Source: an uncultured Dokdonia sp.
Lineage (GTDB): Bacteria; Bacteroidota; Bacteroidia; Flavobacteriales; Flavobacteriaceae
NCBI GenBank assembly: GCA_947503305.1
Contig: CANNDF010000011.1
Span: forward strand, 1 to 39,338
DNA length: 39,338 bases
Direction: 5' to 3'
The position numbers and the translations under genes were made by a program. This document shows positions 3,422 through 35,763 of this stretch, piece after piece (within the stretch, counting starts at the first letter, position 1; the number at the start of each line of letters is the position of its first letter). Below the pieces are notes generated by a model that did not search any database, was not told the origin of the DNA, and worked only from the letters and a program-made list of their open reading frames with translations.

Positions 3422-4105
3422 TTATATATAATCAACCAACTCTTGTGCTGTTTTTAATTGCTTAAAATTAGGGTGAACCACCTCTTCTGTTACTTGCTCA
3501 TGAATCCAAGTTGTATGGAAAGGAATGTGAAATGCATACGCACCTATTTCTAATACTGGGAGGATATCTGATTTTAATGAGTTCCCTACCATTAAAAAGG
3601 AAGAAGGGTCTATATCTAGGTGTTTTACTAATTTCTTATAGTTTGCAGGTTGTTTATCAGACATTACTTCTATATGATGAAAATAGTCAGCCAGACCTGA
3701 TTTTTCTAATTTCCGCTCTTGATCTAAAAGATCTCCTTTAGTGGCCATGACGAGTTTATGCTTTCGCGAAAGCGTATACAACACCTCTTCAATTCCATTT
3801 ATAAGTTGAACTGGTGCTTCTAACATCTCCTTCCCCATTGCTATTAATTTATTGATAATTGCAATAGGTAAATGACCTTCTGTAATTTCAATTGCAGCTT
3901 CTATAAGAGATAAAGTAAATGGTTTTATACCATACCCATACATCGGTAAATTGCGCATTTCCATTTCAAATAATCGTTTTTGACACTCCTCAAATGAAAT
4001 ATACTCATTTAACAATGTACAAAACTGATCTTCTGCATCTCTAAAAAATGTTTCATTGACCCATAATGTGTCATCTGCATCGAATGCAATTGTATTTATT
4101 TGCAT
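3422..4105 (-). CDS. HAD-superfamily hydrolase (phosphatase-like)
   Basis: 227 residues with all four HAD motifs: FDADDTLW at 8-15 (nucleophile D9, acid D11), MATKG around T122, K151 as the conserved lysine, and VGNSLKSD at 173-180. The helical insert between motifs I and II indicates a type I cap. Substrate cannot be told; the family includes sugar-phosphate and nucleotide phosphatases such as YjjG. A copy of GCTTTCGCGAAAGC at 3760-3773 is read as T-L-S-R-K-H (residues 111-116), in the variable part before motif II. Confidence 0.9.
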   Translation of the reverse strand: MQINTIAFDADDTLWVNETFFRDAEDQFCTLLNEYISFEECQKRLFEMEMRNLPMYGYGIKPFTLSLIEAAIEITEGHLPIAIINKLIAMGKEMLEAPVQLINGIEEVLYTLSRKHKLVMATKGDLLDQERKLEKSGLADYFHHIEVMSDKQPANYKKLVKHLDIDPSSFLMVGNSLKSDILPVLEIGAYAFHIPFHTTWIHEQVTEEVVHPNFKQLKTAQELVDYI

Positions 4106-4145
4106 ATACTATGGTATTATAGCTAAATTTTGTTACTTTGAAGCA

Positions 4146-4159
4146 ACCTTTATAAAGGT
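4146..4159. repeat. 14-bp palindrome between divergent genes
   Basis: ACCTTTATAAAGGT lies between the HAD gene (minus) and the T9SS propeller gene (plus). It could be an operator for either gene. It is short and A+T-rich, so chance is possible. Confidence 0.3.
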
Positions 4160-4235
4160 AAAAAGACTACAATATAAAGTTCCTATTTTCTATAGCGAGC
4201 AATTTAATTAATTTGTCAATGTAATACATACTCTT

Positions 4236-6806
4236 ATGTCATTAAAAACTAAAATCCTACTTTTTGTTTTTTCCGTTGCTGTATTGGGATTAACCATCAT
4301 TTCATTTTTAATCCCATCTACTGAAGAAAAAACATCAGAACTTCAAAAGAAATCCGATCGCCCATTATATCCTAATGAATGGATGTATAACCAACGAGCA
4401 TATCCAGATAATTATATTAATAAGGATGCTATAAGGAATGCTACAATACAATCTAGAGCTATTAAAGCAAGTCGAGACTCAAATTTAAATGAAGACTGGA
4501 GTCTTGTAGGGCCTTTAAATACGGGCGGAAGAGTTACTGACATTGCCATATCACCTGATAATAATGACCATTTTTATATTACGACTGCTGTAGGTGGGGT
4601 TTTCCGTACTACAGATAAAGGTGAAAACTGGGAAGCGGTTTTTGATGATATTGGAGTGCCATCTATTGGAAATATAGCAATAGCACCTTCTGATGCACAA
4701 CGTATTTATGTAGGTACCGGAGAAGCAAATGGAAGCGCTACATCTGGAGCTTTTCTAGGCGATGGTATTTATAGATCTGATGATGGGGGGGATTCATGGA
4801 CAAACAAAGGACTTCAAAACAGTAATCATATAGGACGTATTATTGTAGATCCAGCAAATCCTGATCGTGTTTTTGTTGCAGCTACAGGGATATTATATGG
4901 GTATAATGATGAACGTGGTATCTATCGTTCTACAAATGGTGGGGATGCATGGGAAAATGTACTTTTTGTTACTGACTCTACAGCTGCAATTGATATTATC
5001 ATGAATCCACTAGATACAGACATTCTGTATGCTGCGATGTGGGAACGTACTCGAAAGCCATATCAAAGAGATTATGGTGGAGTTACTTCTGGTATTCATA
5101 AATCTACAGATGGTGGAGATACTTGGGAACTTTTAGGCCCAGCCCATGGACTGCCTGCACCCGATGAACAAACGGGAAGAATCGGACTCGCCATCTCAGC
5201 ATCCAACCCAGATATTTTGTATGCACGCTATACGACCAATCAAGTCACCAATCAGTTTGATGGTTTGTATCGATCGCTAGACCAAGGAAATACATGGGAA
5301 TTATATGCCTTTAATGAACTTCTTGGTGTTGATGCCAATTTTGGCTGGTACTTTGGAAATGTCCGCGTAGATCCTGAAAATCCTGGAGAAGTCTATGTAC
5401 TAGGACAGCAGTTTCAGTTTTTTAATGAATCTTTTGGCGGATGGGATATCAACTCTGATATGCACGTAGATCATCATGCTTTAGAATTTTCAACATCTGA
5501 TAGTGATTTTATGCTTTCTGGTAATGATGGTGGCGTATATCTTTCGGAAAATGGCGGAGATAGTTGGGAAAAATTTACCAATTTACCAATTACCCAGTTT
5601 TATAACATTGAGGTAGACTTTACAGAACCTATAAATCTCTTTGGAGGAACACAAGATAATAATACCATACGTACATCTTCTACAACAGGAGATCAGTGGT
5701 TTGCTGTGTGGGGTGGTGATGGATTTCATGTAAATGTAGATCCTAGTGATAATAGTTTTGTATATGCAGAATCACAGTTTGGAAATTTAGCGCGATCTAC
5801 TGATGGTGGTTTTAGTTTTATTGGAGCACTTAATGGTATAAACCCTTCTGACAGGACTAATTGGAATACCCCCGTAATCCTCTCCCCTTTTAATCCTGAA
5901 GTGGTTTATTACGGTAGTAATAAATTATATCAATCTACCAATAGAGCTGTAAATTGGTCAGCAATTAGTGAAGATCTTACTGATGGTTTACATCCTAGTG
6001 GTTCTCTAAGTTTTGGAACACTGACTGCTATTGCAGCCTCATATTCTAATCTTACAACTATTTATACAGGAAGTGACGATGGAAATGTATCTGTCACCTT
6101 TGATGGAGGTACTACCTGGGAGAATATAAGTGAAGGGCTTCCTGATCGTTATATTACTTCATTGGCAATAAGCCCAACAGATGATCAAACGCTTTATGTG
6201 ACATTATCAGGGTTTAGTAATTTAGATTATACTCCCCATGTCTTTAAAACAACTGACGGGGGTCAAACTTGGAATGATATTTCAGGAAGTTTACCAAGCA
6301 TCCCTGCAAATGATATTATACTTGTGGATGTATCAGGACAAGAAGCTTTATTGCTAGCTACAGATATGAATGTATGGTACTCACAAGATGATGGTACTAA
6401 CTGGGATATACTGGGTAATGACCTTCCTTTTACAATTATACGGGATCTTAAATATCATGAACCAACTGGTTTATTATATGCGGGTACTTTTGGGCGGTCT
6501 ATTCATCAATATGACCTTAGTTCACTTGTCTTGTCCGTTGAAGAAAATAGTATTGCAAGTTCTGAATTTAGTATTTTTCCTAATCCCGTTTCGAATACTT
6601 TTACCTTAGACCATAATATTCAAGGTATCGGTTCGATAGTGATTTATGATACTTCTGGAAGAGAAGTCAGTATCCTTTATAAAGGTGAATTAACTAAGAC
6701 ACAAAACACTGCTTTCGAAAGAGGAAATCTTGCTTCTGGCATCTATATCATTAAAGTTACATCATCAAATACAACTTCTGTAAGTAAAAAACTAATTGTG
6801 CAGTAA
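4236..6806 (+). CDS. Secreted VPS10/BNR-type beta-propeller protein with T9SS type A sorting domain
   Basis: 856 residues. A hydrophobic segment at 6-26 acts as signal or anchor. Residues about 90-750 hold many sialidase/VPS10-type repeats of the kind 'Y+S+DGGDSWE' (for example GIYRSDDGGDSW, GIYRSTNGGDAW, GIHKSTDGGDTW, VFKTTDGGQTW), each with a preceding 'D-P-x-x-P-D' loop, giving one or two large propellers. Residues about 775-856 are a T9SS type A sorting domain (SIFPNPVSNTF, IYDTSGREV, LASGIYIIKV, KKLIVQ). The protein should be exported across the outer membrane and cleaved or anchored. The classical sialidase arginine triad was not identified, so enzymatic activity is not claimed; binding or degradation of glycans or proteins is possible. 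It is monocistronic, with a strong terminator after it. Confidence 0.92.
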   Translation: MSLKTKILLFVFSVAVLGLTIISFLIPSTEEKTSELQKKSDRPLYPNEWMYNQRAYPDNYINKDAIRNATIQSRAIKASRDSNLNEDWSLVGPLNTGGRVTDIAISPDNNDHFYITTAVGGVFRTTDKGENWEAVFDDIGVPSIGNIAIAPSDAQRIYVGTGEANGSATSGAFLGDGIYRSDDGGDSWTNKGLQNSNHIGRIIVDPANPDRVFVAATGILYGYNDERGIYRSTNGGDAWENVLFVTDSTAAIDIIMNPLDTDILYAAMWERTRKPYQRDYGGVTSGIHKSTDGGDTWELLGPAHGLPAPDEQTGRIGLAISASNPDILYARYTTNQVTNQFDGLYRSLDQGNTWELYAFNELLGVDANFGWYFGNVRVDPENPGEVYVLGQQFQFFNESFGGWDINSDMHVDHHALEFSTSDSDFMLSGNDGGVYLSENGGDSWEKFTNLPITQFYNIEVDFTEPINLFGGTQDNNTIRTSSTTGDQWFAVWGGDGFHVNVDPSDNSFVYAESQFGNLARSTDGGFSFIGALNGINPSDRTNWNTPVILSPFNPEVVYYGSNKLYQSTNRAVNWSAISEDLTDGLHPSGSLSFGTLTAIAASYSNLTTIYTGSDDGNVSVTFDGGTTWENISEGLPDRYITSLAISPTDDQTLYVTLSGFSNLDYTPHVFKTTDGGQTWNDISGSLPSIPANDIILVDVSGQEALLLATDMNVWYSQDDGTNWDILGNDLPFTIIRDLKYHEPTGLLYAGTFGRSIHQYDLSSLVLSVEENSIASSEFSIFPNPVSNTFTLDHNIQGIGSIVIYDTSGREVSILYKGELTKTQNTAFERGNLASGIYIIKVTSSNTTSVSKKLIVQ

Positions 6807-6821
6807 CGTACTATTGATCTC

Positions 6822-6867
6822 ATATAAAAAGCCCAAAATCAATTATCAGATTTTGGGCTTTTTATAT
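6822..6867. terminator. Bidirectional intrinsic terminator
   Basis: A 19-bp perfect stem (6822-6840 with 6849-6867, core AAAAAGCCCAAAATC) with an 8-nt loop and A and T runs on either side serves the convergent propeller gene and ettA. Confidence 0.9.
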
Positions 6868-6883
6868 AAATGCTTTTTGATGC

Positions 6884-8575: not shown

Positions 8576-8608
8576 GTGTATGTATTAATATATTTAACTA
8601 TTCAAAAA

Positions 8609-8616
8609 CAAAATTA
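8609..8616 (-). promoter_or_regulatory. Possible -7 element of the ettA promoter
   Basis: On the minus strand this reads TAATTTTG, matching TAnnTTTG, about 34 bases before the ettA start. A clear -33 TTG at the right distance is missing. Confidence 0.35.
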
Positions 8617-8626
8617 CAAAATCCAT

Positions 8627-9937
8627 TTACGAAATCTGTTCTAAAACCTCTCGCATTGCTTTTGCTTTAAGTAAACACTCTGCGTACTCTTTATCAGGAT
8701 CAGAACCAGCAGTAATAGCGCCTCCGACAGAATACGAAATATACTTTTCGGTTTCATTATAAAGTATACTTCGAATGATCACATTAAAATCAAAATCACC
8801 TGCAGGTGTAAAATACCCTACACTACCACTATACAAACCGCGTTTGGTGTCTTCTAAGGTTTCTATAATTTGCATGGCACGTACCTTAGGTGCCCCTGTC
8901 ATACTTCCCATTGGGAATGTTGATCGTATTACATCTACGGGGGATATGCCTACTCCTATTTCAGATATCACTGTTGAAATCATTTGATGTACTTGTTTAA
9001 AAGGATAAACTTCACATAAGGTTTCTACAGCAACACTTCCTTTTTGGGCAGTCCGAGATAAATCATTTCTAACCAAATCTACTATCATAATATTTTCTGA
9101 TCGTTCTTTTGGATCTTGTGATAATTCTTTTGCAAAAGCGTTGTCTTCTTCAAGAGTCTTTCCCCTAGGAGCTGTGCCTTTAATAGGTTGTGTAATAATC
9201 TTATTTCCTTGTTTACGGATATAGCGCTCTGGAGTTGCAGAAAGTAAATAATGCATATCCATTTTCAAATAAGTAGCAAAAGGTGGGCTACTAATGGCAT
9301 TAAGCTGCTTATATGTTCGGTATGGATCAATAGTACCATAGGCATAAAACTCTTGGCAAAAATTTGCTTCATAAATATCTCCCCTATTGATATGAGATAA
9401 CATTGTACGTACCTTCTCTTTATAGGCTTCTTTATGAATCTTAAGTTTTATTTTTAAGGGAGCATTATTTGCAGATACAACATCGCATATACTATTTTGT
9501 TCCTTAGTAATGCTCCGCCAGTCTTCATCCATCTCATCATCTACCATCCCTAAATAATGCATCTCTATGACATTGCCTTTTATCAAAAATAATTTCTTAG
9601 GTTGGAAAAACTGAAGATCAGGGATATGTAGTCCATCATCATTTTTTGAAGTCAATTTTTCAACATCATTTTTAAGATCATATGCAAGATATCCAAAAAT
9701 CCAATCGGCTGTAGTTTGTTGGTATTCTTCAAGTCTATCAAAAGCCCCATGGTACGAGGTTTTAATACTTGTAAAAGCATCTACCGCTAATATGGCATTA
9801 TACTCTGGATATGCTTGATACTCATAATCATTACTATCTAACCATACAACCTCATCATAAGCTTGTGCCCAAGCTAATAGCTGTTGCTTTAATAGTACTA
9901 GATCTTCATATGTATGCGTTTGGGTCGTTCTATTCAT
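8627..9937 (-). CDS. pabB: Aminodeoxychorismate synthase component I (PabB type)
   Basis: A chorismate-utilising enzyme of about 436 residues. Numbered from the start at 9937, the PIKGTAPRGK motif is at about 251-260, ENIMIVDLVRNDL at about 281-293 and FPMGSMTGAPK at about 341-351. The lysine in PIKGT is the residue that separates PabB from TrpE, which has PIAGT. It adds ammonia to chorismate to give 4-amino-4-deoxychorismate for folate. No glutamine amidotransferase partner is next to it. An ATG at 9973 would add 12 residues (MHFGNAYFYKLK); I prefer the inner ATG because the upstream residues do not resemble the family, but the start is uncertain. Confidence 0.88.
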   Translation of the reverse strand: MNRTTQTHTYEDLVLLKQQLLAWAQAYDEVVWLDSNDYEYQAYPEYNAILAVDAFTSIKTSYHGAFDRLEEYQQTTADWIFGYLAYDLKNDVEKLTSKNDDGLHIPDLQFFQPKKLFLIKGNVIEMHYLGMVDDEMDEDWRSITKEQNSICDVVSANNAPLKIKLKIHKEAYKEKVRTMLSHINRGDIYEANFCQEFYAYGTIDPYRTYKQLNAISSPPFATYLKMDMHYLLSATPERYIRKQGNKIITQPIKGTAPRGKTLEEDNAFAKELSQDPKERSENIMIVDLVRNDLSRTAQKGSVAVETLCEVYPFKQVHQMISTVISEIGVGISPVDVIRSTFPMGSMTGAPKVRAMQIIETLEDTKRGLYSGSVGYFTPAGDFDFNVIIRSILYNETEKYISYSVGGAITAGSDPDKEYAECLLKAKAMREVLEQIS

Positions 9938-10046
9938 TTTCAGTTTGTAAAAATAAGCATTCCCAAAATGCATTGATATTCATTTAGAAAACTTATTTTT
10001 AGAATGTGCACTATAGCAAAGAAGTATTTATTTTTTACATTCTATT

Positions 10047-10265
10047 ATGAGTCAACCCAATAATCCATTGCACGGTGTCACCCTAGCAATGATATTAGAA
10101 TTTTTAGAAGCAAAGTATGGCTGGAAAGAACTCAGTTATCAGGTCAATATTAATTGTTTTAAAAATGATCCATCCATAAAATCGAGTTTAAAGTTTTTAC
10201 GTAAGACACCATGGGCACGGGAGAAAGTAGAGCAATTATATTTACAATCAATAGATCGTACATAG
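10047..10265 (+). CDS. VF530 family DNA-binding protein (DUF2132)
   Basis: 72 residues matching VF530 almost throughout: [21 protein letters not shown] at about 6, then [31 protein letters not shown]. These small helical proteins have a DNA-binding-like fold known from a structure of a Vibrio protein; the biological role is unknown. It is single-gene, with the 22-bp palindrome 15 bases downstream. Confidence 0.94.
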
Positions 10266-10280
10266 GGAGAAGTTAAAAAA

Positions 10281-10302
10281 GTATGCTTTCGCGAAAGCAT
10301 AC
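10281..10302. repeat. 22-bp palindrome containing GCTTTCGCGAAAGC (intergenic copy)
   Basis: GTATGCTTTCGCGAAAGCATAC is perfectly symmetric; the shared 14-bp core is at 10285-10298. A run of six A precedes it, so on the minus strand it resembles a terminator, but no minus-strand gene ends here. Confidence 0.9.
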
Positions 10303-10348
10303 AAATACCTCTCCGTCTAATCGTCGAATATAGTATCTTTAAAGACAA

Positions 10349-11977
10349 GTGAAACATACGTTTATGATATCAAAAAAGGATTTTTCCCAGTATCGCAATA
10401 GCCTCTTTAGGCATTTAGATGGAATCGTTACTGCTCCATCTGCCTATGAATTATATACTAATGGTGTAACTGATTATTTACTTGAAAAAAAAACGTGTTC
10501 TTTAAGCGAGCTCACAAAGAAGTTTGCTGCCAATGAGGGATATCTTAATGTTGCTTTACATGTACTATGTTCTCAAGGCTGGCTCGTGCAAGATATAGAT
10601 AATAAAAGTGACCAAATTACATATAAAACAACTTCAAAAAGCGCGATTGCCTTTCCGATGTTTAATATCTATAAAGATGTAGTGCATCTGTTACGCCTTA
10701 GTGCAAATTATCACTATCGCAAATTTGAAGTGCCTCCATTCTTAGCACTAGAAGAAATTTTCAAGCATTTTAAAAACAGGTACTCTCTCCCACTCTCGGA
10801 AGATCCTATTACTCAAGAAATTCAAGAACAAATACTTACTCATATTGAAGGGATCATTCTAGGTCCAACACTAGTACATCTCTCTATGAATGGAATGTTT
10901 CATAAGTATTTTATGCAAGCAAGTTTTAAGTTAGAAGAATTTCATGAAGATCCAGAGAACTTTGAGAGATTGCTTACGATTTTAATCCATTTTGGTTTAT
11001 TCTCTAGAACAAATAACACATATCGATTTACAGAAAAAGGATTGTTTTTTGCAAAGAGAGCTAGTGCTTATGGAGTTACGGTATCTTATATACCTACACT
11101 TAGAGCATTAGATGAGCTTATTTTTGGAAACCCAACAGCTGCCAAAGAAGCTGGTGATGGAAACAAAGAAGGGCATGTAGATCGTGCAATGAACGTTTGG
11201 GGAAGTGGCGGTGCTCATTCTAGTTATTTTAAAGTAGTGGATGAGATTATTATAGATTTATTTAATAAACCTTTAGAGCAACAACCTAAAGGGATTTTGG
11301 ATATGGGATGTGGTAATGGCGCCTTTTTAACACACCTTTTTGAGGTAATAGAACATCAGACATTGCGCGGAAGGCATCTTGACGAACACCCATTAATTCT
11401 TGTCGGTGCAGATTATAATGAAGCTGCGCTTAAAATTACTAAAGCAAATCTTATACAGGCAGATATATGGGCAAAAGTAGTTTGGGGAGATATAGGTGAC
11501 CCCGATCGGCTTGCTTCAGATTTACATCAAGATTATGGTGTTTCTCTAGGTGATTTACTCAACGTACGATCTTTCTTAGATCATAATCGTATCTGGAAAG
11601 AGCCTAAACACATAGATCCTACACATATAAGCGACTCTACAGGGGCTTTTGCCTATGAAGGCAAACGTATTCCCAATAATGCTGTAGAAGCGTCCCTAAG
11701 TGAACATTTCAAAGCATGGGCTCCTTACGTCAAAAAATTTGGATTATTGCTTATCGAGTTACATACGGTCCCTCCTATTCACATTGCACAAAATATAGGT
11801 AGATCTGCAGTTACAGCCTATAATGCTACTCATGGATATTCAGATCAATATATCGTAGAAGCCACTGTTTTTGAGCAAGTTCTTAAAAATGCAGGTTTAT
11901 ATCGTAATGATTCGCTTTCGCGAAAATTTCCAGACTCAGAACTAGCAACCGTTACCGTAAATTTATTCACCATGTAA
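10349..11977 (+). CDS. Class I SAM-dependent methyltransferase, AprA-related
   Basis: 542 residues. The N-terminal half contains two helical winged-helix-like blocks (about 30-100 and 175-240, each with SLSELTKKF- or FERLLTILIHFGLF-type helices). A Rossmann methyltransferase domain follows, with motif I LDMGCGNGA (317-325), an acidic GAD at 353-355 after beta 2, and GDIGD at 380-384. The layout resembles the AprA-type methyltransferases of polyketide assembly lines, but no polyketide or peptide synthase gene is near; the substrate is unknown. The ATG at 10364 (MISKKDF) is a possible start, since a TATCTTTA motif at 10334 would place transcription start near the first ATG. A degenerate copy of the palindrome is at 11914-11925 (read L-S-R-K). 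A terminator follows. Confidence 0.85.
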   Translation: MKHTFMISKKDFSQYRNSLFRHLDGIVTAPSAYELYTNGVTDYLLEKKTCSLSELTKKFAANEGYLNVALHVLCSQGWLVQDIDNKSDQITYKTTSKSAIAFPMFNIYKDVVHLLRLSANYHYRKFEVPPFLALEEIFKHFKNRYSLPLSEDPITQEIQEQILTHIEGIILGPTLVHLSMNGMFHKYFMQASFKLEEFHEDPENFERLLTILIHFGLFSRTNNTYRFTEKGLFFAKRASAYGVTVSYIPTLRALDELIFGNPTAAKEAGDGNKEGHVDRAMNVWGSGGAHSSYFKVVDEIIIDLFNKPLEQQPKGILDMGCGNGAFLTHLFEVIEHQTLRGRHLDEHPLILVGADYNEAALKITKANLIQADIWAKVVWGDIGDPDRLASDLHQDYGVSLGDLLNVRSFLDHNRIWKEPKHIDPTHISDSTGAFAYEGKRIPNNAVEASLSEHFKAWAPYVKKFGLLLIELHTVPPIHIAQNIGRSAVTAYNATHGYSDQYIVEATVFEQVLKNAGLYRNDSLSRKFPDSELATVTVNLFTM

Positions 11978-12015
11978 AAAACACTTCATTCCATACATCG
12001 GAGCAAAGTGTTTTT
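11977..12015 (+). terminator. Intrinsic terminator after the methyltransferase gene
   Basis: AAAAACACTT (11977-11986) pairs with AAGTGTTTTT (12006-12015) across a 19-nt loop; the T run is part of the stem and is followed by CG. Confidence 0.6.
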
Positions 12016-12111
12016 CGAATAAAAACAAAGTATGAAAATATAATTATACTACTATATCGCATGGTGATATAAAAGGTTGCGTCTTACTCATGATTCTCGA
12101 TAGTATTTAGA

Positions 12112-16407: not shown

Positions 16408-16818
16408 TTATAAATTATACAGGTAATCCTGCAAAATAATAGTCGCACTTATCTGATCAACAAGCGCTTTGTTCTGACGTTTTTTCTTTCCTATTCCACT
16501 ATCAATCATTGTTTGAAAAGCCATTTTGGAAGTAAATCGCTCATCATGTCTAATGATATTAAGTGTCGGAAAATTTTTAATAATGCTTTCGCGAAAGCGT
16601 ATAATCTCCTCTTCTACATCTGAGGGCTCATTATTCATTCTTTTAGGCTCTCCTATTACCATACTCTCAACATCCTCTTTTCCCAAATACTCTTTTAAAA
16701 AAGGCACTAACTCTTTAGTATTCACGGTAGTTAAACCAGATGCAATAAGTTGCAATTCATCGGTTACAGCAATCCCTGTCCGTTTGGTTCCAAAATCTAT
16801 TGCAATGATGCGAGCCAT
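16408..16818 (-). CDS. ruvX: Putative pre-16S rRNA nuclease / Holliday junction resolvase-like RuvX (YqgF)
   Basis: 136 residues from ATG 16818 (MARIIAIDFGTKRTGIAVTD). An upstream ATG at 16836 is less likely: a TATTTTTG -7-like motif at 16834-16841 would start transcription after it. RNase H-like features: DFGTKRTG near 8, VIGEPKRMNNE near 54 and HDERFTSKMA near 91, with a final D near 120 (LVDQISA). E. coli YqgF helps mature 16S rRNA 5' ends. A GCTTTCGCGAAAGC copy at 16585-16598 is read R-F-R-E-S. Confidence 0.93.
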   Translation of the reverse strand: MARIIAIDFGTKRTGIAVTDELQLIASGLTTVNTKELVPFLKEYLGKEDVESMVIGEPKRMNNEPSDVEEEIIRFRESIIKNFPTLNIIRHDERFTSKMAFQTMIDSGIGKKKRQNKALVDQISATIILQDYLYNL

Positions 16819-16833
16819 CTGTAAAATTTTGTG

Positions 16834-16841
16834 CAAAAATA
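16834..16841 (-). promoter_or_regulatory. Possible -7 element for ruvX
   Basis: The minus strand reads TATTTTTG (TAnnTTTG) 16 bases before the chosen start codon. No good -33 element was found. Confidence 0.4.
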
Positions 16842-21596: not shown

Positions 21597-23429
21597 TTAA
21601 TTTCCTCCTTCCATTTTCCTTTTAAGAGCTGCTAAGGCATCATTTGCATCACCAAGTGTTGGTTTTGCTTCATCTGCTTGTGCTTTGGCTTTCTTAGCTG
21701 CCTGCTTAACGATTTTTGCTTCATCCTCTTTATGGATAACCATATGAGATGCAACTACTCTTTTAAAGTCTTTATTAAACTCTATTACCTGGAATTCTGC
21801 TTCTTCTCCTTTCTTAAGTTTAGTTCCATCTTCTTTTTCCAGGTGACGTGTAGGGATAAAAGCAACAATATCTTCATTAAAAGTTACTGTAGCTCCTTTA
21901 TCTACAATCTCTGTAAGAACTGCAGTGTGCTTTGTACCTACACCAAAGTCTACATCATATTTATCCCAAGGATTTGCTTCAGTTTGCTTATGTCCTAAGC
22001 TTAGTTTACGTCCTTCTACATCAAGTTCAAGTACTACAACTTCTAATTTATCACCTACAGCACAGAACTCAGATGGGTGTTTGATTTTCTTAGTCCAAGA
22101 AAGATCTGATATATAAATTAGTCCATCAATCCCTTCTTCTAATTCTAAGAATACTCCAAAATTAGTAAAGTTACGTACTACACCTTCGTGACGTGAACCT
22201 ACAGGATACTTAGCAGTAATGTCTGTCCATGGATCTGGAGCTAGTTGTTTGATTCCTAAACTCATCTTACGATCATCACGATCTAAAGTTAAGATCACAG
22301 CTTCTACTTCATCCCCTACTTTCACAAAGTCTTGTGCACTTCGTAAGTGTGTACTCCAAGACATTTCACTAACGTGAATAAGTCCTTCTACTCCTTCTTC
22401 TACTTCTATAAAAGCACCATAATCAGCAATTACAACTACTTTTCCTTTTACTTTATCACCTATATTAAGAGTCTCGCTTAATGCCTCCCATGGATGCTTG
22501 CTTAACTGCTTAAGACCTAATTGGATACGAGTTTTATCTTCATCAAAGTCTAAGATTACAACATTTAATTTTTGATCAAGCTCAACAATCTCATTCGGGT
22601 GATTGATACGTGACCAAGAAAGATCTGTAATATGTACCAGTCCATCAACACCTCCAAGATCAACAAATACCCCGTATGATGTAATGTTCTTAACCACACC
22701 TTCCAGTACCTGACCTTTTTCAAGCTGCCCGATGATTTCTTTTTTCTGTTCTTCAATATCTGCTTCAATAAGCGCTTTATGAGAAACAACTACGTTTTTA
22801 AATTCATGATTGATTTTTACAACCTTGAATTCCATTGTTTTATTTACATACTGATCGTAATCACGGATAGGCTTAACATCTATCTGAGATCCTGGTAAGA
22901 ATGCCTCAATTCCAAAAACATCAACGATCATTCCTCCTTTAGTACGCGCTTTTACAAAACCATTTACAATGGTTCCATCATCATGAGCTGCATTTACACG
23001 ATCCCAAGCCTTAATTACACGTGCTTTACGATGTGATAAAATTAATTGCCCAGTAGCATCTTCACGTACATCTATAAGTACTTCTACTTTGTCTCCAATT
23101 TTAAGATCTGGATTGTAACGGAACTCATTAAGAGAAATTACACCTTCAGATTTTGCATTGATATCTATAATTGCATCTCGATCTGTAATCGTAATAACAG
23201 TTCCTTCTACAACTTCATCATTAAGCGTATCTACAAAATTCTTTGCTACTAGAGCTTCAAATTCTTCAAGTTGCTTATCGTCTACAACATCAATACCTTC
23301 TTCGTATTTTTCCCAGTTAAAGTCTTTAAGAAATTGTTCTGGGTTTGCTTGAGCAGGAGATTGCTCAACTTTTGGTGCTACTGCAGTAGCTTCTTCCTGA
23401 ACTTCAGGAGTTTTTGTTTCTTCAGCCAT
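21597..23429 (-). CDS. rpsA: 30S ribosomal protein S1
   Basis: 610 residues with six S1 RNA-binding domains in order, starting at about 75 (VVEGTVITITDRDAIIDI), 160 (GTIVNGFVKARTKGG), 240 (LEGVVKNITSYGVFVDL), 325 (VKGKVVVIADYGAFIEV), 410 (HEGVVRNFTNFGVFLEL) and 500 (HTAVLTEIVDKGATVTF). The N-terminal 40 residues are a Glu/Ala/Gln-rich extension. S1 unfolds mRNA leaders on the 30S subunit, though Bacteroidota lean little on Shine-Dalgarno pairing. The last residues (KRKMEGGN) are basic. Expression is from the consensus promoter at 23588-23618 with a leader of about 150 nt. Confidence 0.97.
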   Translation of the reverse strand: MAEETKTPEVQEEATAVAPKVEQSPAQANPEQFLKDFNWEKYEEGIDVVDDKQLEEFEALVAKNFVDTLNDEVVEGTVITITDRDAIIDINAKSEGVISLNEFRYNPDLKIGDKVEVLIDVREDATGQLILSHRKARVIKAWDRVNAAHDDGTIVNGFVKARTKGGMIVDVFGIEAFLPGSQIDVKPIRDYDQYVNKTMEFKVVKINHEFKNVVVSHKALIEADIEEQKKEIIGQLEKGQVLEGVVKNITSYGVFVDLGGVDGLVHITDLSWSRINHPNEIVELDQKLNVVILDFDEDKTRIQLGLKQLSKHPWEALSETLNIGDKVKGKVVVIADYGAFIEVEEGVEGLIHVSEMSWSTHLRSAQDFVKVGDEVEAVILTLDRDDRKMSLGIKQLAPDPWTDITAKYPVGSRHEGVVRNFTNFGVFLELEEGIDGLIYISDLSWTKKIKHPSEFCAVGDKLEVVVLELDVEGRKLSLGHKQTEANPWDKYDVDFGVGTKHTAVLTEIVDKGATVTFNEDIVAFIPTRHLEKEDGTKLKKGEEAEFQVIEFNKDFKRVVASHMVIHKEDEAKIVKQAAKKAKAQADEAKPTLGDANDALAALKRKMEGGN

Positions 23430-23489: not shown

Positions 23490-23584
23490 GTTTTTGCGAA
23501 AGCTTTATTAACCACAAAACCGTAAAAGTGGTTTTGTTTTTTGTTTTCTATCCTTTGGTGCTTTCCTAAGGTTATCCAAAAGGA
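23490..23584 (-). promoter_or_regulatory. Structured 5' leader of rpsA (candidate autoregulatory element)
   Basis: About 150 nt lie between the predicted rpsA transcription start (near 23583) and ATG 23429. The leader can form two hairpins: CCAAAAGGA (23576-23584) with TCCTTTGG (23551-23558), and the ACAAAACC/GGTTTTGT pair around 23513-23537. A degenerate palindrome copy GTTTTTGCGAAAGC is at 23490-23503. Leader autoregulation by S1 is known in E. coli; here it is inference. Confidence 0.4.
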
Positions 23585-25261: not shown

Positions 25262-26146
25262 ATGAAGCGCTTTAGTCTACAAGACACTTTTCTCATTAAG
25301 CAGTTCACAAAAACTGGTATACATCGTGATATAGAGCAAAGAAATTATTTCGAAATTATTTTTATAGAAGAAGGTAAAGGAAAACACTTCATTAATGAGT
25401 TTATTGTCACTTACCAAAAAGAAGATATTTTTCTTGTCGCTCCAGAAGACAAGCATCATTTTGAAATTTCTGAAGAAACTACTTTTTGTTACTTCCAATT
25501 TACCGAATTGCTGTTTTCTAGTAAAATGAACTTACCAGACAGATCATACTGGCTGCATCGTATAGAAAGGATTATTCATCATCCTAATCTTCTCCCTGGT
25601 GATATTATAAAAGAAATGAATGATCGCGTACTTATATGGGATATCCATAAGGTCATTAATCAAGAATATAAGGATCAAAAAGAGTTCTACAAACATAATA
25701 TCTCAAATATGGTCAGTACGACTCTAAGTATCATTGCCCGTAATATCACAAGAGATTTTGAAAGTATTTCTATAAAAAGGAATACAGATGAACATACGAC
25801 AATAGATCAAATTTTATCACATATACGACAACATGTATATGAAACAGATTTGATGAGAATTACTGCTATTGCATCACACTTTAATATGACCAATAGTGCT
25901 TTAAGTTCATACTTTAAGAAGAAAACAGGAAAATCGTTACATCACTATATTCTTATGTATAAGATACATCTTGTAAAATATAGATTAAAAAATACTGATT
26001 TTACTGTCTCTGAAATAGCATATCAATTAGGATTTACAGATGAAAGTCATCTTACAAGAATTTTTAAGAAATATAATAATAGTACCCCAAAGCAGTATAA
26101 ACAAAGCGTGCTTGAACAACCTGAATCATTAGGGTTTTCTACTTAA
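25262..26146 (+). CDS. AraC family transcriptional regulator
   Basis: 294 residues. The N-terminal part (about 1-150) has a cupin-like ligand domain (FEIIFIEEGKGKHFINE, FLVAPEDKHHFEIS). The C-terminal part (about 185-285) has the two helix-turn-helix units: RITAIASHFNMTNSALSSYFKKKTGKSL and TVSEIAYQLGFTDESHLTRIFKKYNNSTPKQY. It is divergent from the DoxX-like gene, a usual target arrangement. Its stop TAA shares TTAA (26143-26146) with the stop of the nuclease gene on the other strand. Confidence 0.93.
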   Translation: MKRFSLQDTFLIKQFTKTGIHRDIEQRNYFEIIFIEEGKGKHFINEFIVTYQKEDIFLVAPEDKHHFEISEETTFCYFQFTELLFSSKMNLPDRSYWLHRIERIIHHPNLLPGDIIKEMNDRVLIWDIHKVINQEYKDQKEFYKHNISNMVSTTLSIIARNITRDFESISIKRNTDEHTTIDQILSHIRQHVYETDLMRITAIASHFNMTNSALSSYFKKKTGKSLHHYILMYKIHLVKYRLKNTDFTVSEIAYQLGFTDESHLTRIFKKYNNSTPKQYKQSVLEQPESLGFST

Positions 26147-26919
26147 CCAAAAAGCTCATTGAGCAATCCTGCTAAACGTATTCCCCCTTTTTGGAGTTGA
26201 AAACGTAACGTATCAAAGTAGGTGTACATATACTTGTACCCCAACTTATCACCTTTTTTAGTATTCTTATAAATATCCTTTACAAGAACCCTGCTATCTT
26301 CCATCCAATCCTGTATTGTTCCTTCTTGCAAAGAAGAAACTTGTTTCTTAGATACCTTTGGCATTGTTTGGGCAAGCTCAGAATATGACATATTATAGTT
26401 TTCTATCATTTGAGTATCCCAAACTCTGTGTAAATTTGTCCCGTCTCTAAACCACCGAACTTGAAAATCATTACCTCCTTTATCTTCTCCAATTCCCGTG
26501 TGCAATGGTTGATGTAAATCACCTATCAAATGAACTAATACTTTTAAATGAAATGCTTTAATTTGATCTGAAGAGCTAGGGTCTTTTATTTTATTAATGC
26601 ATGCTTCAATTCCTTTTATAATATCTCCTCGATCACTTGGTGTATGTGTGTCATACGTTTTATCAAATGGAATATTGACATAATGCCAAGGTCCATATGA
26701 TCTATAAAGAGTATCACTTTTTATTTCATCTGCATAGGTAGAAACAAGCGCCAGTGATTTACCATCCAATAATTTATCAATCGTTCGCTTAGCTTTTTTA
26801 GATAGATATTGTTCTGCAATAGCACCAGTAGTACGATGTCCTGTTTTACCCCAATCAAAATTACTAGCTTGAAGATTCAAATTGTAGATGATAAAAAAAA
26901 AGAATACTATAAGGCGCAT
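26143..26919 (-). CDS. Secreted S1/P1-type nuclease
   Basis: 258 residues; signal peptide at about 1-18. All nine zinc ligands line up with nuclease P1: W23, H28, D64, H79, H130, D134, H140, H164 and D168, with spacings identical to P1 (15, 4, 6 and 4 where compared). It is a trinuclear zinc enzyme cutting single-stranded DNA and RNA and removing 3' phosphates, acting in periplasm or outside, for phosphate or nucleotide scavenging. W23 must be the mature N terminus for zinc binding in P1, yet a likely cleavage after A18 would leave four residues before it. Confidence 0.93.
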   Translation of the reverse strand: MRLIVFFFFIIYNLNLQASNFDWGKTGHRTTGAIAEQYLSKKAKRTIDKLLDGKSLALVSTYADEIKSDTLYRSYGPWHYVNIPFDKTYDTHTPSDRGDIIKGIEACINKIKDPSSSDQIKAFHLKVLVHLIGDLHQPLHTGIGEDKGGNDFQVRWFRDGTNLHRVWDTQMIENYNMSYSELAQTMPKVSKKQVSSLQEGTIQDWMEDSRVLVKDIYKNTKKGDKLGYKYMYTYFDTLRFQLQKGGIRLAGLLNELFG

Positions 26920-26980: not shown

Positions 26981-27025
26981 GATTGTAAACGCTTTCGCGA
27001 AAGCAAAATGTGTACCTTTACAATC
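26981..27025. repeat. Nested inverted repeat around GCTTTCGCGAAAGC
   Basis: GATTGTAAA (26981-26989) and TTTACAATC (27017-27025) are perfect 9-bp arms enclosing an exact 14-bp palindrome copy (26991-27004). It lies between the divergent nuclease and hydrolase genes; a TACCTTTA motif at 27013-27020 partly overlaps the right arm and could be the -7 element of the hydrolase gene. Confidence 0.7.
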
Positions 27026-27053: not shown

Positions 27054-27983
27054 ATGAAATACGTAATTTGTTGTGTTTTAATTTTAGGAATGACTCCTAT
27101 TTTATTTGCTCAAAGTAATCCTATCTCGCAGGATATTAAAATTAATCCGTATGTATACGGAACTTTATTAAAGCCAGAATCTCCTACAGAAAATCTTGTT
27201 ATTATTATCCCTGGATCTGGACCAACAGATCGTGATGGAAACCAACAAATGGCACGTAATAACTCATTACGATTACTTGCAGAAGGAATTACAGCTTCTG
27301 GTATAGCTACATTTAGGTATGATAAACGGGTGCTTACTTTATTAAAACAACGTGCATTGCAAGAAGAAAAATTACGATTTGATGATTTTGTAGAAGATGC
27401 TGTTAACACTATCAAGTATTTTTCTGAACGTGGTAACTACAGTAATATTTATGTACTTGGTCATAGTCAAGGCTCTTTAGTAGGAATGATCGCATCTCAA
27501 AAAACTATGGTTGCAGGTTTTATTTCTCTGGCTGGAGCTGGACAAACTATAGATAAAGCTATTGTAAATCAAATAAAATTACAGATGCCTGATCTTGCAG
27601 AAAGTGCAGTCAAATCTTTTGAGGAATTAAAAGAAAATGGTAAAGTAAAAAACTATAGCCCTGCACTTAGTTCAATTTTCAGACCCTCCTCGCAGCCATT
27701 TATGGCTAGTTGGATGAAATATAATCCTAGTGATGAAATACAAAAATTACAAATCCCTACACTTATCATTAATGGAACAAAAGATATTCAAGTAGATGTA
27801 AGTGAAGCACATAGCTTAAAAGCTGTAAAGGATGATGCCTCACTTATCATTATAGATACTATGAATCATATTTTACGATCTATAAAAGGGGACAACCTTG
27901 TAAACACCAAATCATATAATGAACCCCAACGACCTTTATCTGAGGGACTTATTGAAGCAATTACTACTTTTGTTTTAAAATAA
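27054..27983 (+). CDS. Secreted alpha/beta hydrolase
   Basis: 309 residues, signal peptide about 1-19 (ends LFAQ). Oxyanion-region motif PGSGPTDRDGN (53-63), nucleophile elbow GHSQGS with S138, acid in GTKDIQVD near 242-249 and histidine in MNHILR near 270. The GSGPxDRDGN motif is found in a Bacteroidota group of exported serine hydrolases, often called acyl-CoA thioester hydrolase-like or esterase; substrate is unknown. It leads a run of four plus-strand genes but has its own upstream region. Confidence 0.9.
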   Translation: MKYVICCVLILGMTPILFAQSNPISQDIKINPYVYGTLLKPESPTENLVIIIPGSGPTDRDGNQQMARNNSLRLLAEGITASGIATFRYDKRVLTLLKQRALQEEKLRFDDFVEDAVNTIKYFSERGNYSNIYVLGHSQGSLVGMIASQKTMVAGFISLAGAGQTIDKAIVNQIKLQMPDLAESAVKSFEELKENGKVKNYSPALSSIFRPSSQPFMASWMKYNPSDEIQKLQIPTLIINGTKDIQVDVSEAHSLKAVKDDASLIIIDTMNHILRSIKGDNLVNTKSYNEPQRPLSEGLIEAITTFVLK

Positions 27984-28023
27984 TTTCTAGCTGTATTTAT
28001 ATTTTATACAGCACCTATTTCCT

Positions 28024-28031
28024 TACTTTTG
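28024..28031 (+). promoter_or_regulatory. Possible -7 element of the M61 peptidase gene
   Basis: TACTTTTG matches TAnnTTTG, 28 bases before the ATG at 28060. The -33 region has no clear TTTG. Confidence 0.4.
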
Positions 28032-28059
28032 TTTCAAATTACCTATAGTATATATCTCT

Positions 28060-29946: not shown

Positions 29947-29999
29947 TTTTTTCTAAAATTAAAAGGGTTTATCTACATTCGTAGTATTCAACTAACCAA

Positions 30000-32195: not shown

Positions 32196-32265
32196 TCTTT
32201 TTTAGTATTTTGCTGGTATTGTTAGAATGCATTCTCAAAAGCATTCCTCTTCTTAAATACTAGAT

Positions 32266-33528
32266 ATGTTATATATAATAGAAAAAACACCTTTTTTTAC
32301 AAATGATGCCATTATATTTGGTCTACTAGCGATCCTCCTTGGATTTATTTTTTATACTTCAGGAAAAAAAGAAGGATTTTGGGCAAAATTTTATAAATAT
32401 ATTCCAGCATTACTCCTATGCTATATGTTGCCTGCAGTACTTAATTTATTTGGATTAGTAGATGCAGAGTCTTCTAAATTATATTTTGTAGCAAGTCGTT
32501 ATTTACTCCCTGCATCTATTGTTTTGTTTACACTAAGTGTAGACTTAAAAAGTATTGCAAACTTAGGCCCAAAAGCATTAATTATGTTTTTAACGGGAAC
32601 CATAGGTATTGTCATAGGCGGTCCTATAGCTATACTTATAATATCATTTTTTTCTCCAGAAACTATCGGAGGATCTGGCCCTACTGAAGTATGGAGAGGA
32701 CTATCAACCATAGCAGGAAGCTGGATAGGTGGAGGAGCAAATCAAGCAGCGATGCTAGAGATTTATGAATATGATAAAATAGAGTTTGGAAAAATGGTTC
32801 TTGTAGATGTCCTTATGGCAAATATATGGATGGCTATTTTATTATTAGGTATTGGAAAATCTAAGCGTATTGATAAATGGCTAAAAGCAGATAGTTCTTC
32901 AATTGAAACATTAAAACAAAAAGTTACTGAGTTTTCTGATAGTGTAAAAAGAAATCCTTCCTTGAATGATTTGATGATTATTCTAGGTATTGCATTTGGA
33001 GCTGTTGGGATATCTCATTTTGGAGCAGATTATATGACAACTTTATTTACTGATGTTCCTAAAAGTTCGACGCTTTACACATTTACAAAACCCTTTTTCT
33101 GGCTTGTTACATTTGCAACCATCATTGGAGTTAGCCTATCATTTACCCCTATGAAATCTTATGAAGGTGCTGGAGCAAGTAAACTAGGAAGTGTATTTAT
33201 ATACATCTTAGTAGCGACTATTGGGATGAGTATTGATTTAGGAAGTGTTTTTGAAAATCCCGGCCTCATTGCCATAGGTTTTGTATGGATCGCAATACAT
33301 GCAGGTCTTCTTATTCTTGTGGCAAAACTCATTAAAGCTCCATACTTCTTTCTAGCCGTAGGAAGTCAAGCAAATGTTGGAGGTGCAGCATCTGCTCCTG
33401 TAGTTGCAGCAGAGTTTCACCCATCACTTGCTAGTGTAGGTGTATTACTAGCTGTTTTTGGATATGTGGTAGGTACTTATGGAGCGATATTATGTACAAT
33501 TTTAATGGAAATGGCATCAGCTGGCTAG
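32266..33528 (+). CDS. DUF819 family membrane protein (transporter-like)
   Basis: 420 residues with about ten hydrophobic segments over the full length. Motifs: YMLPAVLNLFGL near 45, GGGANQAAMLEI near 162, and a matching inverted half ending with GSQANVGGAASAPVVAAEFHP near 365. The repeated 'G-x-A-N-x-A/G' loops suggest two related halves, as in secondary transporters. DUF819 (YjcL-like) has no established substrate. Terminator or promoter evidence on either side is weak. Confidence 0.9.
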   Translation: MLYIIEKTPFFTNDAIIFGLLAILLGFIFYTSGKKEGFWAKFYKYIPALLLCYMLPAVLNLFGLVDAESSKLYFVASRYLLPASIVLFTLSVDLKSIANLGPKALIMFLTGTIGIVIGGPIAILIISFFSPETIGGSGPTEVWRGLSTIAGSWIGGGANQAAMLEIYEYDKIEFGKMVLVDVLMANIWMAILLLGIGKSKRIDKWLKADSSSIETLKQKVTEFSDSVKRNPSLNDLMIILGIAFGAVGISHFGADYMTTLFTDVPKSSTLYTFTKPFFWLVTFATIIGVSLSFTPMKSYEGAGASKLGSVFIYILVATIGMSIDLGSVFENPGLIAIGFVWIAIHAGLLILVAKLIKAPYFFLAVGSQANVGGAASAPVVAAEFHPSLASVGVLLAVFGYVVGTYGAILCTILMEMASAG

Positions 33529-33577
33529 TATTTCAAATAAAATAATAGCATCTTTGCGATATCAAAAATCATTTTTA

Positions 33578-34279
33578 ATGAGAAGATTCTGTGTCTTTTT
33601 TCTGCTTACATGTCTACTAGCCTCTTGTTCAAAATCTGGCAACTTTACAGTCTCGGGTACTGTAAGAGGTCTTAAAAAAGGAACCCTTTATTTACAACAC
33701 ATAGAAGATACATTACTTGTAAATCTTGATTCACTCGTTATAGATGGAAACCCCGAGTTTTCTTTTACTCATGATTTAAAAGAACCTGAAGTTTTATATT
33801 TACACCTTGATAAAAAAGATGCCTCTGGTTATGATGATCGTATCTTATTTTTTGCAGAACCCGGTGAAATGAATATCACTACCTCTCTTAAGAATTTTGA
33901 AGGGTTTGCCGCTGTTATTGGATCCGAAAATCAAATGCGATGGGCACAGTTTCAAAAAATGAATAGGCAGTTTAATGATAAAAATCTAGATCTTATCAAA
34001 GGCTCTTTTGAAGCTCAACAAACAGGAGATCAGGAAGAAATTTTAAAATATGATGATTCTATTCAAAAATTGCTCGTCTCAAAATACAGGTATACTGGTC
34101 AGTTTGCATCTACAAATGCCAGCTTAGAAGTAGCTCCTTATATTGTAATGACACAAATACCAGATGCAAATATTACGTATCTAGATACTCTTTATAGACG
34201 TTTCCCAAATAAGGTAAAACGTTCTTTATATGGTAAACAATTGAAAATGTTAATTGAAAATCGTAAAAAAGATGAATAA
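33578..34279 (+). CDS. DUF4369 lipoprotein
   Basis: 233 residues from ATG 33578; an upstream TTG at 33554 is rejected because the ATG gives a proper lipoprotein signal (MRRFCVFFLLTCLLASC) with lipobox LASC. DUF4369 domain at about 24-120: FTVSGTVRGLKKGTLYLQH, LDSLVIDG and ILFFAEPGEMNI. This domain is usually followed by a thioredoxin-like redox domain in Bacteroidota; here the rest (about 120-233) is helical and has no CxxC, so it is a shorter variant with no visible thiol activity. A CATCTTTG motif 26 bases upstream may be the -7 element. Confidence 0.87.
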   Translation: MRRFCVFFLLTCLLASCSKSGNFTVSGTVRGLKKGTLYLQHIEDTLLVNLDSLVIDGNPEFSFTHDLKEPEVLYLHLDKKDASGYDDRILFFAEPGEMNITTSLKNFEGFAAVIGSENQMRWAQFQKMNRQFNDKNLDLIKGSFEAQQTGDQEEILKYDDSIQKLLVSKYRYTGQFASTNASLEVAPYIVMTQIPDANITYLDTLYRRFPNKVKRSLYGKQLKMLIENRKKDE

Positions 34280-34314
34280 TACTCTATATACTACAATCAA
34301 TACTAGTACTCAAT

Positions 34315-34349
34315 AAAAAAGGCTTCTTTCTAATAAAGAAGCCTTTTTT
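34315..34349. terminator. Bidirectional intrinsic terminator
   Basis: GGCTTCTTT/AAAGAAGCC (34321-34329 with 34335-34343) with a 5-nt loop, flanked by six A and six T, between the DUF4369 gene and tRNA-Thr. Confidence 0.9.
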
Positions 34350-34350
34350 G

Positions 34351-34424
34351 AGCCGATGGAGGGACTCGAACCCACGACCTGCTGATTACAAATCAGCTGC
34401 TCTAGCCAGCTGAGCTACATCGGC
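34351..34424 (-). tRNA. tRNA-Thr (anticodon TGT)
   Basis: Acceptor GCCGATG/CATCGGC with discriminator T, anticodon arm CTGAT-TTGTA-ATCAG region reading TGT, and T arm GTGGGTTCGAGTCCCTC. It sits 58 bases downstream of an 88-residue protein gene on the same strand. Confidence 0.95.
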
Positions 34425-34482
34425 CTGAACACTGCAAATATAAATGAGATTTATTCATATTTGCAACATCTTTTTTAAAAAT

Positions 34483-34749
34483 TTATAAGGAATTAATTCG
34501 CTCTACAAGACCTATAGCTTTTTCCTCAAGTTCTACACGAACTCCTGTCAAATGCTTAGTTCTACTTTCTACTTTTCGGTCATTTACTTTTTCAATCAAT
34601 GTATCAAAAGTTGCGATTGCATCATCAATGATTGCCTCACTATTTTTAGTATCCTCTTTAGGATTAAGAGCTTCCCATACATATACTGCATCTATTATGT
34701 CTCCTAATACAAAATTGATGTCTTTCTTTAAATCTCTAATCGTTGCCAT
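34483..34749 (-). CDS. Conserved-looking small helical protein, unknown function
   Basis: 88 residues, soluble and largely helical (heptad-like hydrophobic spacing across residues 5-85), no cysteine. The start MATIRDLKKDINFVLGDIIDAVY and the ending VELEEKAIGLVERINSL are well formed, and the reading frame has coding character with plausible codons. I do not recognise a family. It lies 42 bases after manA on the same strand and probably belongs to that transcript. Confidence 0.8.
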   Translation of the reverse strand: MATIRDLKKDINFVLGDIIDAVYVWEALNPKEDTKNSEAIIDDAIATFDTLIEKVNDRKVESRTKHLTGVRVELEEKAIGLVERINSL

Positions 34750-34791
34750 ATTAATTTATTTGGGTGCAAAATTAAACTAATTAAATCCTAA

Positions 34792-35763
34792 TTATAAATA
34801 AACTTCCAGAAATTTAGCATTTTTACTTTCTATATTAATTTCTTTACAAGCAGCAGGTATCAGGGTGGTTTGCCCCTTTGTAAGCGTTTCTTCTTCATTA
34901 CCATCCATTAATTGTATACTACCATCTATCATGATAAGCACTGTAAAACTATCTGTACGAGATATACGATACGACGAGGTTGTTGTAAGTAGTACAATAT
35001 CTGTTTTAAAATAGGGACAGTGTTTTAATTTTTGCACACCGTCTAATGTATCATCATACGTAAGCTTATAATCCATTGGGGTTTTAAAATTAAGAGCCCT
35101 TCTCGCATCATTGATATGTAAATCTCTAAGTGTTCCGTCTTTTTGTTTACGATCATAATCAAAAACCCGATATGTAATATCTGATGTTTGTTGGATTTCT
35201 GCAAGCACCACCCCCTTTCCTATTGCATGTATTAATCCAGCATTTATAAAAAACGCATCTCCCTCTTTTACAGGAATATATTGTAGATGTTCATGAATAG
35301 ATCCTTTTTCAAGAATTGCATCAAATTGTGTAATTGTTATTTCTTCTTTAAACCCAATGATTAATTTTGCATCGGGTTCGGCCTTTAAGATGTACCACAT
35401 CTCTGTCTTTCCTTTACCTTTATGTTGTTGTGCTGCTATTGTATCATCAGGATGAAGTTGGACAGAAAGATCATCAGAAGCATCTATATACTTTATTAAT
35501 AAAGGAAAATCTGATCCAAAACGATCTGTTACGGATGTTCCTAATACCGCTTTCGCGAAAGCAGACACAATAGTCCCTAGCGCCTTCCCTTTATGAATAC
35601 CATTTGTGATAATACTTTGATCATCTGGTAAGTCTGCAATTTCCCAGCTTTCTCCATAAGGTCGATCTTCATCAGTCTTATGCAAAAATGTTTTTAAGGC
35701 GTTTCCTCCCCAAATTTTTTCTTTAAGAATAGGTCTGAATCTAAGTGGATACCAGTTATTCAT
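34792..35763 (-). CDS. manA: Mannose-6-phosphate isomerase, class I
   Basis: 323 residues, the short Bacillus-type ManA. Metal ligands: QLHPDD with H104, KTEMWY with E121 and NAGLIHAIG with H179; YRVFDYDR (198-205) is the substrate-side motif. Converts fructose-6-phosphate and mannose-6-phosphate, feeding GDP-mannose or glycan synthesis. It overlaps the peroxiredoxin gene by 8 bases. A GCTTTCGCGAAAGC copy at 35549-35562 is read A-F-A-K-A at 68-72 in a loop region. Confidence 0.95.
   Translation of the reverse strand: MNNWYPLRFRPILKEKIWGGNALKTFLHKTDEDRPYGESWEIADLPDDQSIITNGIHKGKALGTIVSAFAKAVLGTSVTDRFGSDFPLLIKYIDASDDLSVQLHPDDTIAAQQHKGKGKTEMWYILKAEPDAKLIIGFKEEITITQFDAILEKGSIHEHLQYIPVKEGDAFFINAGLIHAIGKGVVLAEIQQTSDITYRVFDYDRKQKDGTLRDLHINDARRALNFKTPMDYKLTYDDTLDGVQKLKHCPYFKTDIVLLTTTSSYRISRTDSFTVLIMIDGSIQLMDGNEEETLTKGQTTLIPAACKEINIESKNAKFLEVYL

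Follow-up and report, generated by a model that had tools for sequence, protein, structure and literature searches.

What kind of site is a 14-bp palindrome that recurs within and between genes, and what keeps it intact? The question is raised by a 39,338-nt stretch of DNA (the window), part of contig C11 of an uncultured Dokdonia genome (G000; 4,264,867 bases, 57 contigs). All seven copies named in the first-pass annotation, five exact and two degenerate, were found again, with gene contexts that match the ORF table (Table 1). These are the seven matches to GCTTTCGCGAAAGC at two or fewer mismatches in the window; 100 dinucleotide shuffles averaged 0.03. The G+C content of about 35% assumed in that annotation also agrees with the window, which measures 31–37% per 2-kb block.

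Table 1. Copies of the palindrome in the window, with their gene contexts
Copy	Position	Context	Coding or match
Exact	3760..3773	In HAD-like ORF (3422-4105, minus)	Codes LSRK
Exact	10285..10298	Intergenic; flanking ORFs divergent, 8627-9973 (minus) and 10349-11977 (plus)	
Degenerate, GCTTTCGCGAAAAT	11914..11927	Near the end of ORF 10349-11977	12/14, one arm altered
Exact	16585..16598	In ruvX (ORF 16408-16836, minus)	Codes RFRES
Degenerate, GTTTTTGCGAAAGC	23490..23503	Upstream of ribosomal protein S1 gene (21597-23429, minus)	12/14
Exact	26991..27004	Intergenic; flanking ORFs divergent, 26143-26919 (minus) and 27054-27983 (plus)	
Exact	35549..35562	In manA (ORF 34792-35763, minus)	Codes AFAKA

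Copy number in the genome and across the family

A genome-wide search revealed GCTTTCGCGAAAGC at 570 places in the 4.26-Mb own genome, and the same letters reversed without complementing had no occurrence there. Markov models of order 1–5, fitted to 439 kb of the genome after masking the sites, gave an expected genome total of 0.001–0.011. Without masking, the expectation was 0.003–0.012 at orders 1–4 and 1.5 at order 5, the latter because the motif feeds its own model. Chance would thus yield far below one copy, as had been proposed, and the count, rather than lying near the Markov value, lies about five orders of magnitude above it (570 vs 0.001–0.011). The mean spacing in the whole genome, about 7.5 kb, fits the scale of roughly 6–10 kb read from the window.

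The palindrome was similarly abundant in close relatives. Among 59 genomes (the own genome and its relatives), copy numbers of 369–905 were seen in every one of the 18 same-genus members, the own genome and 17 others; G027 of genus g11 carried 578, G029 carried six, and the remaining 39 had none. Among 397 genomes sampled evenly across the family, six had hundreds of copies (two of genus g1, three of g11, and one of g210), and the remaining 391 had 0–19; at least one copy was present in 80 of the 397, of which 74 had 1–19. We infer that g1 is Dokdonia, and g11 is probably Nonlabens; among the matches listed, named records in which one stretch carried several sites came mostly from these two genera. 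Genome G230 (C1; genus g210), with 408 copies, represents a third site-rich genus and adjoins Dokdonia by rpsA identity (88%). Phylogenetic analysis of rpsA took in 30 of the 35 genomes searched, the five left out including one site-rich genome (G027). The 11 site-rich genomes in the tree grouped together with a support of 87/95 and in 89% of 200 bootstrap trees; therefore, one origin suffices. Copy number showed no dependence on genome size, genomes of 3.3, 5.5, and 4.26 Mb having 905, 903, and 570 copies, respectively.

Where positions were listed for low-count genomes, several showed clustered copies, such as G116 with all 16 within 80 kb of one contig, and those of G184 were scattered. One cluster, in an uncultured Aquimarina (L070), reads from its ORFs as a copper-efflux type region, and homologous regions in G118, G127, G141, G254, G376, and G029 carry sites at the same places. 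In the metal-resistance-like islands (L070, L188-L203), sites lie 933 bp apart in two instances, and some have decayed by single substitutions. The DNA of such islands in other genera probably came by way of the site-rich clade. Sampling of 280 kb from site-poor genomes, as 14 pieces of 20 kb each, yielded no copy at two or fewer mismatches, and a weak test on 14 samples of 20 kb gave no obvious long repeat peculiar to other flavobacterial genera. A viral scan yielded 120 stretches, and the 80 of these that were listed were mostly single hits without a known host.

Anatomy, placement, and persistence of the site

GCTTTCGCGAAAGC forms the centre of an extended palindrome, approximately TACGCTTTCGCGAAAGCGTA. 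In G016, the base preceding the core is C in 89% of copies, and further out A, T, and T are preferred (61%, 77%, and 66%, respectively). The palindrome spans about 20 bp and the biased flanks extend 20–30 bp, the whole site with flanks measuring 60–70 bp. The 5' flank is poor in C and the 3' flank in G, equally at coding and noncoding sites, in both Dokdonia and Nonlabens; in G016, the C frequency of the left flank is 0.05–0.13 for about 25 bp compared with 0.17 farther away. No covariation was observed between the flank arms, which argues for a double-stranded footprint and not an RNA stem. Outside the sites, TCGCGA (22 vs 16–23) and CGCG (199 vs 210) occur at chance level, so at least 14 bases appear to be read.

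Most copies are perfect. Exact, one-mismatch, and two-mismatch copies numbered 58, 11, and 9 in 439 kb of G000; 70, 2, and 5 in 240 kb of G003; 191, 8, and 21 in 620 kb of G016; and 8, 2, and 4 in 60 kb of G230. The corresponding numbers were 50, 14, and 14 in 258 kb of other Dokdonia (one locus) and 43, 6, and 2 in a Nonlabens set picked for holding sites. The islands outside the clade held 41 exact and 11 one-mismatch copies (omitting L070, which almost wholly duplicates part of G254), a one-mismatch share somewhat higher than that of G016 or G003 but not clearly higher than that of G000. Many two-mismatch copies lack one outer GC with the other arm intact, and one-armed copies recur in relatives. 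Observed-to-expected ratios at 0, 1, 2, and 3 mismatches were about 1.4e5, 515, 18, and 4 in G000 and 2.0e5, 177, 21, and 1.5 in G016; the drop from exact to one mismatch was 268-fold in G000, 1670-fold in G003, and 1129-fold in G016. For uptake sequences, the accessible part of PMC1939737 likewise describes a ratio that falls with mismatch load, with a drop of 92 in H. influenzae and 82 in N. gonorrhoeae.

Spacing was mostly more even than random. The first 326 kb of G000 contig C1 hold 51 sites with a spacing CV of 0.48 (random, 0.97; none of 10000 draws reached so low a value) and two gaps below 2.5 kb where 15.8 were expected; the CV becomes 1.12 over 400 kb once the adjoining 63-kb gap is included. 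The 70 sites of the 240-kb G003 block gave a CV of 0.54 (0 of 10000 draws as low). A single 25.6-kb gap kept the matching G016 block from over-even spacing (CV 0.913, P 0.30). Gaps below 500 bp, of which about nine were expected, are missing from both blocks. Around the chromosome of G016, 20 stretches of 20 kb contained 3–9 sites each (mean 6.45, variance 1.94), a flat and under-dispersed distribution, and by eye these 20 stretches showed no trend of site density with GC skew.

Some DNA lacks the site. The 63-kb stretch G000:C1:326186-389711 (L154-L157) contains none and appears to be a conjugative element because two genes there have type IV secretion coupling-protein domains. Further long gaps on this contig, such as 747504-823769, may resemble it. 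Two closely related Nonlabens phages (L466 and L467; 71 kb together) have no copy at two or fewer mismatches; both are annotated with DNA methyltransferases. The G003 DNA that did not align to G016 was about as site-dense (12 sites in 45.2 kb) as the shared DNA (58 in 194.8 kb).

Site density was 6- to 10-fold higher between genes: 0.54 per kb between ORFs vs 0.087 within them in G000, and 1.62 vs 0.159 in G016. Convergent, divergent, and co-directional gaps had densities of 1.89, 1.40, and 1.64 per kb in G016 and 0.53, 0.32, and 0.66 per kb in G000, with no clear preference for any gap type in either genome. These densities give no sign of the placement at gene ends expected of Rho-independent terminators. 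About half of the sites lie inside ORFs, in all frames, and the three readings seen in the window recurred in the frame tally (AFAKA, RFRES, and LSRK: 15, 11, and 8 in G000; 46, 21, and 20 in G016). Together with the counts in the own genome and its relatives, this use of all three frames bears out the earlier view of a genome-wide, DNA-level site beyond protein selection, and the first-pass interpretation as a whole is partly supported. Fifteen frame-0 sites of G016 fall in the first 45 codons, and in ten of them Q comes next. Most of the early-gene frame-0 sites listed for G016 and G000 resemble signal-peptide ends (...SAFAKA, cleavage, Q). This recurrent coding suggests that one DNA site became a recurring protein cleavage motif, and frame use and signal-peptide placement together suggest that the site settles at protein-tolerated positions.

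Comparison of the sister species G003 and G016 (95% identity over 195 kb) showed that 56 of 58 aligned G003 sites are exact in G016; in the reverse direction, G003 matches exactly at 56 of the 57 G016 sites that aligned, the value for random 14-mers being 58%. The exceptions are single substitutions. Insertion elements are not supported: the three sites lost or gained between these genomes differ by one substitution each. At the ruvX site, 15 of 16 relatives, with 72–77% flanking identity, have the exact sequence and the 16th has one mismatch; a pairwise count below 80% identity (302 of 406) draws repeatedly on a few positions, above all this one. Of the other window sites, that at 3760 is exact in G017 and altered in G005, its two alignable relatives, and that at 10285 has a degenerate form in G017, the sole relative that aligned. 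Between Nonlabens and Dokdonia orthologues, none of five sites was common in a small sample: three of four Nonlabens sites aligned to other sequence and one fell in a gap, and one Dokdonia site was missing from its Nonlabens homologue. Thus, sites last within the genus and may turn over between genera. Fourfold-degenerate divergence was 0.056 at 7–30 bp from the core, 0.141 on average, and 0.194 beyond 3 kb; the within-interval difference (0.016, 95% interval -0.012 to 0.043) was not significant.

Candidate readers and explanations

The candidate families tested do not separate site-rich from site-poor genomes. Six of the 16 site-rich genomes and four of the 23 site-poor ones had a PF00437 (T2SSE/PilB-type ATPase) hit above the cut-off, and the full-length form was missing from 10 of the 16 site-rich ones, on which basis a type IV pilus receptor was rejected. 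ParB_N gave one chromosomal gene in each of 34 genomes, with extra copies in site-rich and site-poor genomes alike, and C5 methyltransferases (PF00145) showed no association (7 of 16 site-rich, 11 of 18 site-poor). ComEC was found in all 20 genomes searched (13/13 site-rich, 7/7 site-poor) and the DUF5689 protein in 14/14 site-rich and 17/19 site-poor genomes; the site-rich genomes thus have at least these two competence components. Only one site-clade-specific column was detected in an alignment of 30 DUF5689 proteins. The protein measures 658–659 aa in two Dokdonia (G000, L493; G014, L489) and 466–510 aa in the other site-rich genomes aligned. As described in the accessible text of PMC8459023, the flavobacterial transformation system comprises ComEC, DprA, ComF, and RecA plus four proteins of unknown function, including a DUF5689 surface protein. 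R. columbina DNA, according to the available part of PMC7965970, is best outcompeted by the species' own DNA.

We consider it somewhat short of an even chance (about 0.45) that GCTTTCGCGAAAGC is a protein-read self-marking site, most likely the uptake sequence of a pilus-independent Flavobacteriaceae competence system. A sequence-specific protein of the clade would read the symmetric, double-stranded site of about 20 bp (60–70 bp with flanks), and the accumulation of sites would mark the chromosome as self. This reader would belong to the pilus-independent competence system of the family, and site-bearing DNA would be taken up more readily. Recombination with relatives would then restore mutated copies and keep the sites evenly apart, a molecular drive like that of DUS and USS. 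The receptor would most likely sit on the outer surface of the competence system, with the DUF5689 surface protein and a neighbouring outer-membrane protein as candidates.

This uptake reading, the best explanation overall, is favoured by a copy number independent of genome size and by the site-free conjugative element and two Nonlabens phages. It also accords with the intergenic excess, the permissive protein positions, the lack of a preferred gene context, and the resemblance to DUS traits reported in the accessible part of PMC2397512. The weak rise of divergence with distance from the sites points the same way, although the within-interval test was not significant. Several observations speak against uptake. 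The presence of DUF5689 in most site-poor genomes, with one clade-specific column only, and the frequent absence of the T2SSE/PilB-type ATPase from site-rich genomes are among them, and known uptake sequences work via type IV pili. We know of no uptake sequence so far that is palindromic. DUS are reported to be absent from recently acquired genes, whereas the unaligned G003 DNA is about as site-dense as the shared DNA. The drop from exact to one-mismatch copies is steeper than that of DUS or USS, and one 240-kb G016 block is not over-even. The fuller proposal, that this is the first DNA uptake sequence in Bacteroidota, palindromic, read by a pilus-independent receptor, and kept by strong drive across Dokdonia, Nonlabens, and the third genus, is put forward tentatively.

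Number, perfection, and spacing would also be explained by a clade-specific nucleoid or chromosome-organising protein that binds the palindrome as a dimer every 3–7 kb and organises loops, with selection keeping the sites perfect. We regard this as rather unlikely. A perfect palindrome with independent arms and broad symmetric flanks would suit such a protein, as would the mostly over-even spacing, the very few one-mismatch copies, the long persistence of the ruvX site, and the similar density of shared and unshared G003 DNA; however, copy number does not track genome size, 63 kb gets by without a site, and ParB-family genes are alike in site-rich and site-poor genomes. The protein is likened to Noc, SlmA, or MatP, but its sites are spread over the whole chromosome. 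The sites of Noc, SlmA, MatP, and ParB are also palindromic, 12–16 bp long, and read by dimers on the chromosome, but they number from a few to fewer than 100 and are biased towards or away from the origin or terminus, whereas there are hundreds here with a flat distribution. A segregation or occlusion site (parS, Noc, SlmA, matS) was therefore rejected as first choice, given this distribution and the ordinary ParB content; the segregation or origin-terminus role suggested earlier is unlikely in view of the flat map over one whole chromosome (G016).

A HIP1-like iterated palindrome, maintained by methylation or repair acting on an inner palindrome, is improbable. HIP1 of cyanobacteria (GCGATCGC) is likewise a clade-wide, highly iterated palindrome found in and between genes, and as a descriptive class the earlier comparison with it stands. 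As a mechanism it fits poorly: the site here has 14–20 bp instead of 8, the inner palindromes TCGCGA and CGCG are not enriched alone, and C5 methyltransferases, the only class searched, include no matching enzyme conserved alongside the site. The same observations tell against the short restriction or methylation motif also suggested earlier. For HIP1, the accessible part of PMC4390886 describes orphan methyltransferases for the inner sequences.

There is little to recommend a recombination or packaging signal, whether Chi-like or serving as the start site of a chromosome-moving gene transfer agent: one site per 3–7 kb would suit it, and biased transfer or repair would give persistence and drive, but known Chi sites differ in being short, directional, and non-palindromic. 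An RNA-level element (terminator or hairpin) or promoter operator, for which the palindrome and the intergenic excess might speak, is highly improbable given that there is no clear gap-type preference, that the flanks do not covary, and that ORFs contain roughly half of the sites, with every frame represented.

Relation to known systems and significance

Returning to the uptake reading, comparison with DUS of Neisseriaceae and USS of Pasteurellaceae, as far as the accessible parts of PMC1939737, PMC2397512, and PMC7811141 describe them, shows several shared features: near-perfect copies by hundreds to thousands, an intergenic excess, conservation at orthologous positions, a core with longer flanks, and an observed-to-expected ratio that falls with mismatch load. 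The site differs in being a perfect palindrome of at least 14 bp with far fewer one-mismatch copies, and it is 3- to 7-fold sparser than USS, for which the same partial sources give a spacing of about 1 kb. Its hosts are Bacteroidota that lack a general type IV pilus ATPase. The site-rich genomes searched resemble Riemerella, in the accessible text of PMC8459023, in having ComEC and the DUF5689 surface protein. No established uptake sequence is known for Riemerella; the available part of PMC7965970 lists nothing beyond A/T-rich k-mers no longer than 10 bp.

In the 5.39 million papers searched, from which subscription journals were mostly absent, the 14-mer does not occur. Among the matches listed, no description of it emerged in work on iterated palindromes, uptake sequences, or Dokdonia and Nonlabens, and the literature found contained no uptake experiment on this clade. 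Its 10-bp core occurs in 10 papers, none of them on the subject by title and abstract start.

Site clusters in other genera offer a fingerprint for flagging DNA that may have come via the site-rich clade. If the sites are nucleoid sites, they would form an unusually dense, perfect, and even binding-site set and give a handle on chromosome organisation in Bacteroidota. To our knowledge, sequence-specific DNA uptake is established only in two proteobacterial families. If the sites are uptake sequences, specific uptake would have evolved outside these two families and in the absence of a general type IV pilus ATPase, with a bearing on how drive and safe exchange shape genomes.
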